Source: Eubacteriales bacterium (lineage in GTDB: Bacteria > Bacillota > Clostridia > Oscillospirales > Oscillospiraceae). Taken from it: 64,000 nt of DNA. Location of the stretch: assembly GCA_030533415.1 (NCBI GenBank), contig JAUNJE010000002.1:1-64000 (forward strand), in the 5' to 3' direction. The position numbers and the translations under genes are program-made. The notes beneath the pieces are model-generated. The model saw only the letters and a list, made by a program, of their open reading frames with translations, was not told where the DNA came from and made no database searches. Below are positions 53,474 through 64,000 of this stretch, one piece after another. Numbering within the stretch: position 1 is the stretch's first letter; each line of letters begins with the position of its first letter.

Positions 53474-54709
53474 TCAATCGGCAGTGGCAGACGATTCGTC
53501 TTCTATATAGCGGATCATTGCTTCCACTGCCATTTTTGCGCCTTCTACGGCATGGACTACGGTTTTGGAACCGGTAACCACATCGCCTGCGGCGAAGACA
53601 CCGGGGCGGGTGGTCATCATGGTGTCATCCACCAACAGAGCACCATTTTCAGTCGCCTTCAGGCCGGCAATGTTGCGAGCAAATTCTTTTCGGGGAACCT
53701 GGCTGACGGAGATGATGGTTGCATCTGCTTCCACTTGCTCCAAGCCTTCCTCGTAGCCGATGACTCTGTCATTCTCATCAAAGATAGAGGTCTTAAATAC
53801 GGGGCCGCGCTCCGTGATATGGTCAATCTGTTTGCCAAATACGAATTCAGCGCCGTCCAGCTTGGCGTACTCTACCTCACTGGAGCTGGCGGAGATGTGC
53901 TTGCCACGGGCATAGAGGGTCACATGGCGGGAGCCATTGCGCAGGGCAGTTCTTGCCACATCCATAGCGGCATTGCCCATGCCGATGACAGCTACGGTAT
54001 CACCCAGCTTGTGCCGTTTTGGGTTAGCCAGGTAGTTCAGGCCGAAGTGGACATTACCGAAGGACTCGCCCTGGATGCCCAGATTCTTGGGCCGGTCTGT
54101 GCCGGTACCCACAAATACGCAGGAATAGCCATCCCGGAACAGGTCGTCCATCTGCAGCACGGCACCAATGGTGGTGTTCAGACGCACCTGGATGCCCATT
54201 TCCCGCATTCGGGAAAGGTAGCGCTCCAGAATGGATTTGGGCAAACGGAACTCGGGAATGCCATACTGCATGATGCCGCCGATCTTGTCCTCCCACTCAA
54301 AGATGGTGACAGGGTAGCCCTTCTGGGCAAGCAGGATGGCGGCGGTCAGACCGGCAGGGCCGGAACCGATGACGGCCACCTTTTTGTCCTTGGGTTCCGG
54401 TTTCTCGATCTTCATGCGGTCCAGATACATATCGGAAATGTAGTTTTCAATGCCGGAAAAATGAACCGGCGTATCCTTCTTGCCTCGGATGCAGTGCCCG
54501 GCGCACTGCTGCTCATGATTGCAGACGATGGAGCAGATGGTGGACATGGGATTATTTTGAAATAGAATTTCGCCTGCCTCCATCACCTGGCCGGACTTGA
54601 ACATCTGGATAATCTGTGGGATGGGGGTATGAACGGGGCAGCCTTGCTGGCACAGGGGCTTTTTGCAGTTGAGGCAGCGCCTTGCCTCGCTAACAATATG
54701 AATTGTCAT
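53474..54709 (-). CDS. PreT/GltD-like FAD-dependent oxidoreductase
   Basis: 411 aa. N-terminal [4Fe-4S]-binding part with CLNCKKPLCQQGCPV and CSIVCNHEQQCAGHC; FAD-binding VIGSGPAGLTAAILLAQKG; NAD(P)-binding VIGMGNAAMDVARTAL; C-terminal PGVFAAGDVVTGSKTVVHA. Length and layout match the small subunit of NADPH-glutamate synthase and the PreT subunit of dihydropyrimidine dehydrogenase. The usual large partner subunit is not adjacent. Last gene of the fdrA operon, 12 nt after DUF6282, so it may supply electrons to that pathway. GAGAGG precedes the ATG. Confidence 0.85.
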   Translation of the reverse strand: MTIHIVSEARRCLNCKKPLCQQGCPVHTPIPQIIQMFKSGQVMEAGEILFQNNPMSTICSIVCNHEQQCAGHCIRGKKDTPVHFSGIENYISDMYLDRMKIEKPEPKDKKVAVIGSGPAGLTAAILLAQKGYPVTIFEWEDKIGGIMQYGIPEFRLPKSILERYLSRMREMGIQVRLNTTIGAVLQMDDLFRDGYSCVFVGTGTDRPKNLGIQGESFGNVHFGLNYLANPKRHKLGDTVAVIGMGNAAMDVARTALRNGSRHVTLYARGKHISASSSEVEYAKLDGAEFVFGKQIDHITERGPVFKTSIFDENDRVIGYEEGLEQVEADATIISVSQVPRKEFARNIAGLKATENGALLVDDTMMTTRPGVFAAGDVVTGSKTVVHAVEGAKMAVEAMIRYIEDESSATAD

Positions 54710-54721
54710 ACGTTTTCCTCT

Positions 54722-55567
54722 CTATTTCACGAAATCCAGTCCCAGCATTTTTCCGGGATTGGTGACCAGCATTGCCCGCAAGTCGCTTTCGGAGATCCCG
54801 GCATTGCGATAATAGTCGATGCTCTCCCGGACAGCGTCCCTCCAGAATGGGGTATTCACCTGTCCGCTGTCTGTGGCAAGAATGATGTAATCTGCACCGA
54901 TTGCCTGAATGGCTTCGACGTTGGAAGGGAGATTGCAGACAAACCGGTTTCCAACGGGCTGGGCATATTCCCGCTCTAAGTACACGCCGTAGTCCCGGAC
55001 TATTTGCTTTTGCTGTGTCAGGGTCATGCCCACGATGTGATACTCCGGGTGGGTGACGACGATTTTCTGCACGCCCGCATTGCGGGCAGCTTCCACAATA
55101 GGAAAGCATTCCTCAGCGTTTGCATGACCCGTTTGTAAACACGCATCATAATCCCGGATCAGCTCAAAAATCGGCATCAGCTCCGGGACGGCTCTTCCGT
55201 TTTCCACAAGCCGGATACCGCCGGATCTGCCCATTTTCTGAAATTCGTTTTCCGAATCCACCGTGGGCAGCCAGACGACCTTTGCTCCCATTTTCAGTTC
55301 TGTTTCCAGCGCATATGGATTCAGCCCACCCATGCTGCGGTTCAGCGCAACGCTGCCAAAGAGTTCAAACTCCGATTCCGGGTATTTCTCCTTTTTGATC
55401 TGGTTGACGATGGCTGCCCGTCCGGCGGTTGGGGAGAAATGGGTCTTGATGACCACACCTCTGGCCCCCAAGGCAACGCCCTGCTCCATCAATTCCAGAT
55501 CATTCAGCTTCCGGGGCTTCACATCCGGGCCGGAATGATAATGTAAATCAATAATTCTTTGTATCAT
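54722..55567 (-). CDS. DUF6282 amidohydrolase-like protein
   Basis: 281 aa. The start IIDLHYHSGPDVKPRK has the HxH metal-site motif of amidohydrolase-fold enzymes; later QTGHAN, VTHPEYH and LATDSGQ supply further His/Asp ligands. A metal-dependent hydrolase is likely, but the family has no assigned reaction. It begins one base after the glycerate kinase stop codon, so it is tightly coupled. ATG 55567 is chosen over an upstream TTG. Confidence 0.75.
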   Translation of the reverse strand: MIQRIIDLHYHSGPDVKPRKLNDLELMEQGVALGARGVVIKTHFSPTAGRAAIVNQIKKEKYPESEFELFGSVALNRSMGGLNPYALETELKMGAKVVWLPTVDSENEFQKMGRSGGIRLVENGRAVPELMPIFELIRDYDACLQTGHANAEECFPIVEAARNAGVQKIVVTHPEYHIVGMTLTQQKQIVRDYGVYLEREYAQPVGNRFVCNLPSNVEAIQAIGADYIILATDSGQVNTPFWRDAVRESIDYYRNAGISESDLRAMLVTNPGKMLGLDFVK

Positions 55568-62870: not shown

Positions 62871-62871
62871 G

Positions 62872-64000
62872 TTAATTATCCTCCAATACAATCATTTCAA
62901 ATTCCTTTAATTTATCCAGATGAACGGTGCCGTCCTTCATGGTGACGGTGCCGCCGTTCAGAGCTTTTGCGTTTGCAAAGCTGCCGGGAATGTGCAGCGC
63001 AATATTTGTCATGGGGATGGGCTTAAAGAAGCTGTTGCCGAAGTAACCGCTGCCGTTAATGAGGGAAACAACGGTCTTATTGTCCTTCTTGCTCAGCACC
63101 AGCTCCACGCTTTCGTGCAGGCCGGGAGCCAGCTGAGGCAGATTACAGATCTCAAACAGCACATCCTGCATGATATTCAGCGTGTTGGTGTAGCCCTCAT
63201 TGTGATAGAAGCTGCCGCAGAACCAAGGGAAGTATACCGCCTTGCCGGAGCCGTAAACATTCACGGTCAGACCGGGGTTCTCGGTTTCAGCGGTGTGGTA
63301 AGCAATTTCCGGGGGACCGTAGAAAGGTTCCGGCTCGGTGTGCAGATACTGCTTTACGCCGGGGGCATATTCGCAGACCCGGATTTCCGCACCGGGAGCA
63401 ATGACGGGGGCTGCTGCACTGCGGGTCAGCACCTCGGCATCGGAAGCAGACAGGGTAAACACCGTGCTCATGGTCTTTTTCTTCTCCAGCACCTTGGCAA
63501 CGCCCAGGCTCTTGAGGGAAGCCACATCACCCCGGACACCGCTGTCGCCGGAGACGACCAGTGTACCGCCGTTTTCCGCAAAGGCATCCAGAAGTGTACA
63601 GTGGGCAGGCTGCAAATCCTTGGCATCCGCCACGATGACAACCTTTTTGCCGGTCAGAGCGGCTTCGGTTACGCCACCGGGCTTGACTTCATCAAAGGGT
63701 ACATGACAGGCGGTCAGGGCCCGAATCCAGCCGTAGCTCTCGGGATCGGAGCGTCCTGCCTGTCCCTTGGCAACCAGGAGAACCTCGGCAGCACTGGTTC
63801 TGCCAACCACAATGTCCTCATGCTCTTTGTGGAAGCGGAATACATTCTTGTGGCTTTCAAAGGTGGATTTGTCCCGGTGGTTATCCAGCCGACCGATGAC
63901 ATAGACACTGGTGGAACCGGCATTGGCAAGGTTCTGCCACTGGCGAAGCTCAGAAACGCCGGCGGAAACGGAGCTTTCCCGGTAGCGGAAGCCCATATAG
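62872..64000 (-). CDS. Glycosidase-like protein with beta-galactosidase trimerisation-type domain (partial)
   Basis: C-terminal ~375 residues of a larger protein that continues beyond the right edge. The segment GWIRALTACHVPFDEVKPGG through VVSGDSGVRGD resembles the glutamine-amidotransferase-like middle domain of GH42-type glycosidases; the end (VTMKDGTVHLDKLKEFEMIV) resembles a short C-terminal beta domain. The catalytic domain is outside the window. It stops 1 nt before the garR start, so it heads this part of the operon. Confidence 0.6.
   Translation of the reverse strand, partial: YMGFRYRESSVSAGVSELRQWQNLANAGSTSVYVIGRLDNHRDKSTFESHKNVFRFHKEHEDIVVGRTSAAEVLLVAKGQAGRSDPESYGWIRALTACHVPFDEVKPGGVTEAALTGKKVVIVADAKDLQPAHCTLLDAFAENGGTLVVSGDSGVRGDVASLKSLGVAKVLEKKKTMSTVFTLSASDAEVLTRSAAAPVIAPGAEIRVCEYAPGVKQYLHTEPEPFYGPPEIAYHTAETENPGLTVNVYGSGKAVYFPWFCGSFYHNEGYTNTLNIMQDVLFEICNLPQLAPGLHESVELVLSKKDNKTVVSLINGSGYFGNSFFKPIPMTNIALHIPGSFANAKALNGGTVTMKDGTVHLDKLKEFEMIVLEDN

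Follow-up and report, generated by a model that had tools for sequence, protein, structure and literature searches.

An operon of an Eubacteriales bacterium encoding relatives of the oxamate carbamoyltransferase subunits FdrA and AllG with an acyl kinase of their own

The window analysed here is the whole stretch of 64,000 nucleotides that begins the 120,566-base contig JAUNJE010000002.1 of an Eubacteriales bacterium, the genome of which is 2.72 Mb in size and 88.5% complete. The window ends within an operon encoding relatives of FdrA and AllG, two subunits of the oxamate carbamoyltransferase AllFGH of Escherichia coli, together with an acyl kinase of the acetate-kinase family, for which we use the name AckL (the AllG-linked kinase). 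These genes are part of a real, conserved metabolic module that resembles AllFGH and has its own kinase subfamily. The core idea of an initial annotation of the window, phosphorolysis coupled to an acyl kinase, stands in a changed form.

Ten genes of the operon lie within the window on the minus strand. All are at the positions assigned to them initially, and their families were confirmed by Pfam and NCBIfam (Table 1). Extension to the right, which had been advised, yielded the end of GHL6, a hydroxyacid dehydrogenase (HacDH), LrgB, LrgA and a divergent AraC regulator. The complete operon comprises thirteen genes in the order LrgA-LrgB-HacDH-GHL6-tartronate-semialdehyde reductase (TSR)-esterase (Est)-AllG-FdrA-small FdrA module-AckL-glycerate kinase (GckA type)-DUF6282-PreT. 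The genes are packed as tightly as previously described, since six of the nine junctions between the ten window genes overlap or leave at most 2 nt. The wider junctions measure 12 nt (PreT-DUF6282) and 31 nt (both GckA-AckL and AllG-Est). These distances were calculated from ATG starts, except for TTG in DUF6282 and GTG in GckA, both of which are unsure. The reading frame of allG is open to 61173, and the ATG at 61035 is its probable start.

Table 1 Genes of the operon and the adjacent regulator (contig coordinates share their origin with those of the window)
Feature	Position	Strand	Evidence
PreT/GltD-like FAD/NAD flavoprotein	53474..54709	-	PF14691, PF07992
DUF6282, amidohydrolase-like	54722..55576	-	PF19799, 217 bits
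Glycerate 2-kinase, GckA type (DUF4147+MOFRL)	55569..56831	-	PF13660, 253.8 bits; PF05161, 118.6 bits; two NCBIfam equivalogs, both below cut-off
AckL, acetate-kinase-family acyl kinase (PF00871)	56863..58038	-	TIGR00016, 338.3 bits (cut-off 293.4)
61-aa protein, C-terminal module of full-length FdrA	58038..58223	-	NF004760 positions 505-554, 26 bits
FdrA/AllF-like subunit (succinyl-CoA-synthetase-alpha-like), without the separately encoded C-terminal module	58226..59767	-	NF004760 positions 5-496, 381 bits (below cut-off of 433)
AllG-like (DUF1116/PF06545) subunit, type A clade	59764..61035	-	PF06545, 208 bits (cut-off 27)
Est, alpha/beta-hydrolase-3 (hormone-sensitive-lipase family), esterase/lactonase candidate	61067..61987	-	PF07859, 146 bits
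GarR/GlxR tartronate-semialdehyde reductase (TSR)	61989..62870	-	NF008592, 446.4 bits (cut-off 397); TIGR01505, 389.1 bits (cut-off 340.75)
GHL6, glycosidase-like, 650 aa	62872..64000, on to contig 64824	-	PF14871, 103 bits (full gene)
2-Hydroxyacid dehydrogenase (HacDH), beyond window	contig 64829-65932		PF02826, 184 bits
LrgB, beyond window	to about contig 66629		PF04172, 236 bits
LrgA, beyond window	contig 66626-66976		recognised from reading of the ORF, no model
AraC regulator, divergent from operon	contig 67046-68272

AllG clades and the AckL kinase

AllG is encoded by 24 of 391 genomes of the class and by 24 of 400 genomes of the family. A scan of named genomes provided 80 loci, the best of 567 confirmed matches, which were used for the context counts given below. 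Therefore, the share of canonical loci among them is no census. Across the named loci, identity to the window AllG shows a gap from 54% to 37%. A tree of 100 AllG rows, drawn with a midpoint root and with several long branches flagged, contains three clades: type A (45 rows, branch values 100/100), type B (18 rows, 100/99) and canonical (37 rows, 100/95). YlbE and YahG of E. coli belong to the canonical clade, and the window AllG is located outside it, in type A. The named loci divide into 44 of type A, 15 of type B and 21 canonical ones. The hosts of type A are Clostridia (Oscillospiraceae, Lachnospiraceae and unclassified), Erysipelotrichaceae, Sphaerochaetaceae, other Spirochaetales and one member of the Anaerolineaceae, and gut or rumen is given in many of the record titles. 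The Anaerolineaceae locus (L131:2846-11236) combines a type A AllG with two FAD oxidoreductases and a glycoside hydrolase of family GH2.

AckL is a clade-specific partner of AllG. It is encoded in 36 of 44 type A, six of 15 type B and none of 21 canonical loci, and the corresponding counts for carbamate kinase are zero, zero and three. The two kinases do not occur together in any of the 119 loci probed (E 1e-8). The AllG-FdrA-AckL core, present in 36/44 type A loci, recurs far above chance. This part of the co-occurrence expected from the initial annotation held, and that of DUF6282 (4/44) did not. Of the eight type A loci in which AckL was not found, seven run out at most 1.7 kb from AllG, and the other is L131 of the Anaerolineaceae. 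Neither AckL nor carbamate kinase marks a single clade. AckL changes 11 times on the AllG tree, compared with a mean of 33 for shuffled labels, and many rows have no kinase in view. An unusual expansion is found at a locus of the canonical kind, L088:1-19999, where three AllG and two FdrA matches are accompanied by carbamate kinase within 20 kb.

The absence of AllH (DUF2877) and carbamate kinase noted for the window extends to its genome, which at 88.5% completeness contains no match to AllH and no carbamate kinase over the cut-off (best 27.6 bits versus 358). AllH was found in none of the 44 type A loci and none of seven type A genomes, in three of five type B genomes, and in all four canonical genomes. 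E. coli encodes another FdrA/AllG/AllH set, YahEFG(HI), which is annotated without a substrate. It differs from the window operon in possessing AllH and a carbamate-kinase-like gene, and its AllG groups with the canonical clade.

The 61-residue protein, which had been listed among the components of the system, matches the C-terminus of E. coli FdrA. Canonical FdrA genes of purine clusters have it too, as a separate small reading frame (L042, L045, L047, L049 and L051), and the protein was rejected as a novelty. It also matches the N-terminal extension of AllG from the type B locus L035 (33 bits), which suggests that the small module moves among FdrA, AllG and a gene of its own. Such AllG extensions are present in type B loci L035:9101-10513, L036:8192-9607 and L037:9638-11056, with the module match tested in L035 only.

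As the initial annotation had proposed, the FdrA/AllG system has its own acyl kinase, a second and divergent paralogue. The housekeeping acetate kinase of the same genome is encoded on another contig and scores 508 bits, versus 339 bits for the operon copy. Both copies are present in all 12 genomes picked for carrying the cluster (484-544 bits for the housekeeping and 302-372 bits for the AllG-linked kinase), and two of the 12 contain a third, partial match (82 and 54 bits). An unrooted tree was calculated from 49 rows: 12 housekeeping copies, E. coli AckA and TdcD, and 35 of 52 AckL rows, after 17 duplicates or near relatives had been removed by hand. One branch (100/100) splits off AckL, within which type A sequences form one group (100/100) and type B sequences two, with several long branches flagged.

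A kinase reading frame was found in 64 of 106 loci examined. The 52 AckL rows include duplicates and near-identical copies, and some genome-set members overlap (L105/G316, L119/G694, L121/G569, L107/G425, L149/G177 and L171/G012). Residues are numbered according to Methanosarcina thermophila acetate kinase (MtACK), counted off the alignment to 1tuu/1g99. AckL is a member of the same family as the acetate and propionate kinases AckA and TdcD (TIGR00016) and retains Gly331 of the ADENOSINE motif, His180 and Arg241 in 52/52 rows and Glu384 in 51/52. Because Gly331 is kept, AckL is likely to use ADP/ATP. In contrast to AckA and TdcD, all 52 rows carry the replacements S11T, R91K, D148E, N211G and G212S, and the acyl pocket is altered. 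The 12 housekeeping copies have R, D, N and G at positions 91, 148, 211 and 212, the first two of which are catalytic. Position 239 is Ala in 41/41 type A and Asn in 11/11 type B rows. The pocket residues V93, L122 and P232 differ between the two types, with Ala at position 122 in 11/11 type B rows and Leu at position 232 in 41/41 type A rows. According to an excerpt of a study of MtACK, Asn211 contacts the beta-phosphate and forms a hydrogen bond with Gly239, and Val93, Leu122 and Pro232 determine acetate binding (PMC4390882). AckL is thus a subfamily that has phosphate loops of its own, and its acyl pocket comes in two forms. The housekeeping acetate kinase was rejected as the operon kinase because AckL is a divergent second paralogue with distinct residues on a separate branch.

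Residues of AllG and FdrA also vary with the clade. In AllG, 42 alignment columns are near-invariant (at least 90%) across all three clades. A further 24 are conserved within clades and differ between them: three set types A and B apart from canonical AllG, five differ in all clades, 11 distinguish type A alone and five type B alone. Arg258 and Thr381 (E. coli numbering; 97% each in canonical AllG) are Gly in 100% of types A and B, and Asp298 (97% in canonical AllG) is Tyr in 96% of type A and Trp in 100% of type B. The 86 FdrA rows contain 53 near-invariant columns (at least 88%), including His402 (numbering of the window protein). Three FdrA columns separate types A and B from canonical sequences (N189 to Ser, D381 to Glu and P184 to Ala), 16 set apart type A alone and one type B alone. 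Type A is thus the most changed of the clades. Some of the AllG and FdrA sites that correlate with the kinase may recognise the carbamoyl group of the canonical substrate. Shared ancestry alone could fix such sites, and therefore the residues are evidence for a changed acyl group but not proof of one. AllG and FdrA are related by sequence to proteins of solved structure, PDB 3clq (204 bits) and E. coli FdrA, 3dmy (220 bits), respectively; therefore, structural work is practical.

The conserved His402 is also compatible with a CoA-dependent reaction, in which FdrA-AllG would form an acyl phosphate from phosphate and an acyl-CoA, as succinyl-CoA synthetase alpha or a phosphotransacylase does, and AckL would make ATP from it. 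FdrA matches the CoA-ligase family PF00549 (75 bits), structures of succinyl-CoA synthetase alpha and, weakly, the CoA-binding family PF02629 (23 bits). However, the assay of the characterised relative, as described in the consulted portion of its report, contained oxamate, carbamoyl phosphate, Mg and buffer and no CoA (PMC11326118). Moreover, the recurring neighbours in type A loci that were read at their sequence starts included no evident CoA-acylating gene, although no search was aimed at such genes. We consider a CoA-dependent mechanism improbable.

Gene neighbourhoods of the three types

Neighbouring genes were counted using single or few probe proteins per family, so that distant homologues can be missed, and the HacDH counts take in weaker homologues (32-46% in some loci). 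Type B loci contain an IlvD/EDD dehydratase (13/15), an SdhA-like flavoprotein (12/15), a short-chain dehydrogenase/reductase (SDR; 12/15), a metallo-beta-lactamase-fold hydrolase (11/15), 2-keto-3-deoxy-6-phosphogluconate (KDPG) aldolase (6/15) and PfkB kinase (6/15), a content that makes them sugar-acid clusters. In the type B loci L143, L144, L154-L156 and L170 from Lentisphaerota, Verrucomicrobiota and Planctomycetota, the arrangement flavoprotein-FdrA-AllG-dehydratase is kept, with no AckL in the flanks, and another user of the acyl phosphate or an unlinked kinase is expected there. L144 belongs to the cultured Oligosphaera ethanolica DSM 24202. Type A neighbours are the GarR-type TSR (24/44), HacDH (25/44) and GckA (14/44), each with no occurrence in the 15 type B and 21 canonical loci. 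The IlvD/EDD dehydratase was found in 0/44 type A loci, and no named locus combines the type A glycerate genes with the type B IlvD-type dehydratase. Canonical loci contain molybdenum-hydroxylase-like (12/21) and cyclase-like genes (14/21), named by reading rather than by a model.

None of the purine-type probes (molybdenum hydroxylase, cyclase and carbamate kinase) found a match in the 44 type A loci. This result bears on the possibility that FdrA-AllG makes carbamoyl phosphate by phosphorolysis of a ureido or amido acid, with AckL replacing carbamate kinase. Such carbamoyl transfer would agree with the homology to AllF and AllG, the 42 AllG and 53 FdrA positions shared by all three clades, and the use of TSR and glycerate kinase in the allantoin regulon of E. 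coli, where GlxK is located beside allECD. On the other hand, AllG positions 258, 298 and 381 and FdrA position 189 change with the kinase, and the sister clade, type B, is located in sugar-acid clusters. The ureide reading is not our first choice, as the searches yielded no AllH, no carbamate kinase and no purine-type genes, and we regard it as unlikely. With these negatives and a kinase distinct from the housekeeping enzyme, neither of the two observations named beforehand as refuting the initial proposal was made.

The association of the glycerate-forming enzymes with the system, put forward initially, was borne out at the genome level: a MOFRL (GckA-type) glycerate kinase is encoded by five of seven type A genomes and by none of nine type B or canonical ones. 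TSR exceeds the cut-off in five of the seven type A genomes, and the remaining two, which encode neither TSR nor glycerate kinase, have a completeness of 79% and 89%. When 8 kb are available on both sides, at least one glycerate gene (TSR, HacDH or GckA) is present in 19 of 23 type A loci. The cluster of L136 includes an unrelated glycerate kinase (PF02595, 453 bits), a non-orthologous replacement for GckA. The best NCBIfam matches of the operon HacDH are D-2-hydroxyacid dehydrogenase, glyoxylate reductase and phosphoglycerate dehydrogenase, none of which reaches its cut-off, and its family suggests that it may reduce hydroxypyruvate. Glyoxylate carboligase was rejected as the source of tartronate semialdehyde. 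It is found over the cut-off in none of the seven type A genomes, and the lower matches in four of them were taken for acetolactate-synthase relatives. Therefore, TSR probably has another source of substrate.

Aldarate pathways usually finish with TSR and glycerate kinase, and uronate isomerase (UxaC) is encoded by five of seven type A genomes. Both observations would suit an ordinary uronate or aldarate operon in which AllG, FdrA and AckL are passengers of unrelated function. However, the AllG-FdrA-AckL core is the most constant part of the operon across Clostridia, Erysipelotrichaceae and Spirochaetota, and probes for KDPG aldolase, dihydrodipicolinate synthase (DHDPS)-type aldolase and IlvD dehydratase found nothing in the 44 type A loci. 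One probe, for an enolase-superfamily-looking dehydratase, had no match in another locus; aldarate dehydratases were otherwise not searched for. An ordinary operon with passengers has, in our estimate, a low probability. A pure glucuronate route was also considered and is weakened by the occurrence of uronate isomerase.

In type A loci, no neighbours outside the core recur as constantly as GHL6 (33/44) and Est (30/44). The GH2 enzyme beside the operon closely resembles a solved beta-glucuronidase (7kgz, 978 bits), and an enzyme like it is present in 11/44. These enzymes might release an ester or glycoside whose bond is the one phosphorolysed. However, GHL6 and Est are absent from all 15 type B loci probed, which share the FdrA-AllG core and in six cases AckL. 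The upstream hydrolases may supply the substrate, but they leave the carbonyl-transfer enzyme unexplained. Phosphorolysis of the ester or glycoside itself is very improbable.

Proposed phosphorolysis of diketo sugar acids

The gene content, the clade-specific partnership of AllG with AckL and the altered residues are established from sequence, whereas the reaction, its substrate and the order of its steps are our inference. An acyl phosphate is probably made from a carbon substrate and used by AckL. Phosphorolysis to an acyl phosphate for ATP synthesis, as initially proposed, remains the best reading. As the sister clusters are of the sugar-acid kind, a carbon-carbon bond in a diketo sugar acid is more likely to be the one split than the amide, ester or glycoside bond suggested initially. 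Tentatively, we favour FdrA-AllG as a relative of oxamate carbamoyltransferase with a changed acyl group, which would use phosphate to cleave a 2,4-diketo sugar acid in place of oxalurate. The assignment of 2,4-diketo acids as the substrate class is just as provisional, and derivation of the substrate from a hexuronate is doubtful.

Oxamate is a classical isostere of pyruvate, and oxalurate (carbamoyl-NH-CO-COO-) is isosteric with an acylpyruvate (acyl-CH2-CO-COO-). The AllFGH genes were identified in 2024 for allantoin breakdown; the authors report that AllFGH turns oxalurate and phosphate into oxamate and carbamoyl phosphate and that all three genes are needed (PMC11326118). The known reaction, H2N-CO-NH-CO-COO(-) + Pi -> carbamoyl-P + oxamate, would correspond to R-CO-CHX-CO-COO(-) + Pi -> R-CO-OPO3 + XCH2-CO-COO(-), after which AckL would convert the acyl phosphate to ATP and the free acid. 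The likeness to AllFGH and its kinase AllK lies in the homologous FdrA and AllG subunits and in an operon that pairs a phosphorolytic carbonyl transferase, here predicted from the genes, with an ATP-making kinase. The type A operon differs in its separate AllG clade, changed AllG and FdrA residues, and kinase partner from the acetate-kinase family, and in that no AllH, carbamate kinase or purine-type genes were found.

A precedent for the substrate is provided by non-phosphorylative sugar pathways. According to excerpts of two reports, oxidation at C4 turns the product of the dehydratase into a 2,4-diketo-3-deoxy acid (PMC13406643; PMC11199699), from which, as one of them states, a hydrolase releases pyruvate together with an acid, for example lactate (PMC13406643). 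Type B loci have the dehydratase, dehydrogenase and hydrolase genes that such steps of the L-fucose/L-rhamnose pathway need, and the diketo-acid scheme would explain their dehydratase and oxidoreductases. The leaving half in type B, with an IlvD-type dehydratase (X = H), would be pyruvate. In contrast, type A lacks the IlvD-type dehydratase (X = OH), so the C3 hydroxyl would be kept and hydroxypyruvate released, which would require a reductase and a glycerate kinase, the genes that distinguish type A from type B loci. HacDH may reduce hydroxypyruvate to D-glycerate, TSR may act on the tautomer, tartronate semialdehyde, or, with a uronate as the substrate, on the aldehyde acid set free by AckL, and glycerate kinase would yield 2-phosphoglycerate. 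If the substrate derives from a uronate, AckL would deliver tartronate semialdehyde and the second half would be hydroxypyruvate, so that both reductases would be used. The GH2 enzyme of 11/44 type A loci is in line with such a source, and uronate isomerase in five of seven type A genomes speaks against it. Organic acids may be moved by LrgAB, or by an AEC permease in relatives. Whereas the known pathway hydrolyses the diketo acid, cleavage by FdrA-AllG with a kinase in place of the hydrolase would use phosphate and save the bond energy as ATP, which would suit fermenters.

Several observations weigh against the diketo-acid scheme. Type A is without AllH, for which one of the three E. coli genes codes, although in E. 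coli deletion of allH is reported to have left 1.2 of 17.7 mM oxamate and deletions of allF and allG none (PMC11326118). The altered catalytic residues of AckL could signal a different or weak activity, and MtACK variants at N211 and G239 lose activity according to the excerpt cited above (PMC4390882). The 11 changes of AckL on the AllG tree come partly from contig ends. In L131, no FdrA or AckL accompanies the type A AllG within 10 kb. Among the 15 type B loci, nine show no AckL in the flanks examined; two of these are from Clostridia and seven from Lentisphaerota, Verrucomicrobiota or Planctomycetota. Of the 23 type A loci that extend 8 kb to either side, four have no glycerate gene nearby, although the genome of one of them, G316, carries both TSR and glycerate kinase elsewhere on the same contig. 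TSR exceeds the cut-off also in one of five type B and one of four canonical genomes. The enzyme forming the diketo group is unclear in most type A loci, with an FAD oxidoreductase in 6/44. Free glucuronate already has a standard route through UxaC, and the roles of GHL6 and Est are left unexplained. Columns specific to type A (11 in AllG and 16 in FdrA) outnumber those shared with type B (three in each), and therefore one reaction for both types is an assumption.

If the diketo-acid scheme is correct, a hexonate- or uronate-level substrate of type A would give hydroxypyruvate and glycerate or tartronate semialdehyde, both leading to 2-phosphoglycerate, and two oxidations would be offset by two reductions. 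It is possible, although rather unlikely, that anaerobes use FdrA-AllG and AckL as a carbon-carbon bond phosphorolase without thiamine pyrophosphate (TPP) or CoA that splits a 2,4-diketo sugar acid, in type A into two glycerate-level halves. This would be a third route for splitting 2-keto sugar acids, beside aldolase and hydrolase, and an extra site of substrate-level phosphorylation in the sugar-acid fermentation of anaerobes, many of them from gut or rumen by record title. Activity of these relatives on diketo sugar acids would make the AllFGH family a general family of carbonyl-to-phosphate transferases, and the homology labels of FdrA, AllG and AckL-type genes (oxamate carbamoyltransferase and acetate kinase) would have to be replaced. 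No link between FdrA or AllG and either acyl kinases or diketo acids appeared in the titles and abstract starts searched in the open literature. The search did not extend to subscription papers and preprints, and therefore it is no proof of novelty.

Accessory genes and flanks of the operon

DUF6282 and PreT had been listed as members of the system and were rejected as core parts on conservation. DUF6282 is present in four of the 44 type A loci, which are near-identical, and PreT in none of the 44 others, so that both are probably accessory. A comparison with PDB sequences gave no useful match for DUF6282 and weak matches only for GHL6. The segment that adjoins the PreT end of the operon (window 48962-53455) encodes DUF6076 (PF19553) and a 411-residue reading frame without a Pfam match, and it includes reading frames that we take to be primase- and D5-like NTPase genes. 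It looks like the edge of a mobile element. Beyond the AraC regulator, the other strand (L003:4500-10457, contig 68500-74457) encodes a lipoprotein-like protein of 213 residues with a repeated segment, an MFS_2 transporter, GH2 and GH43.

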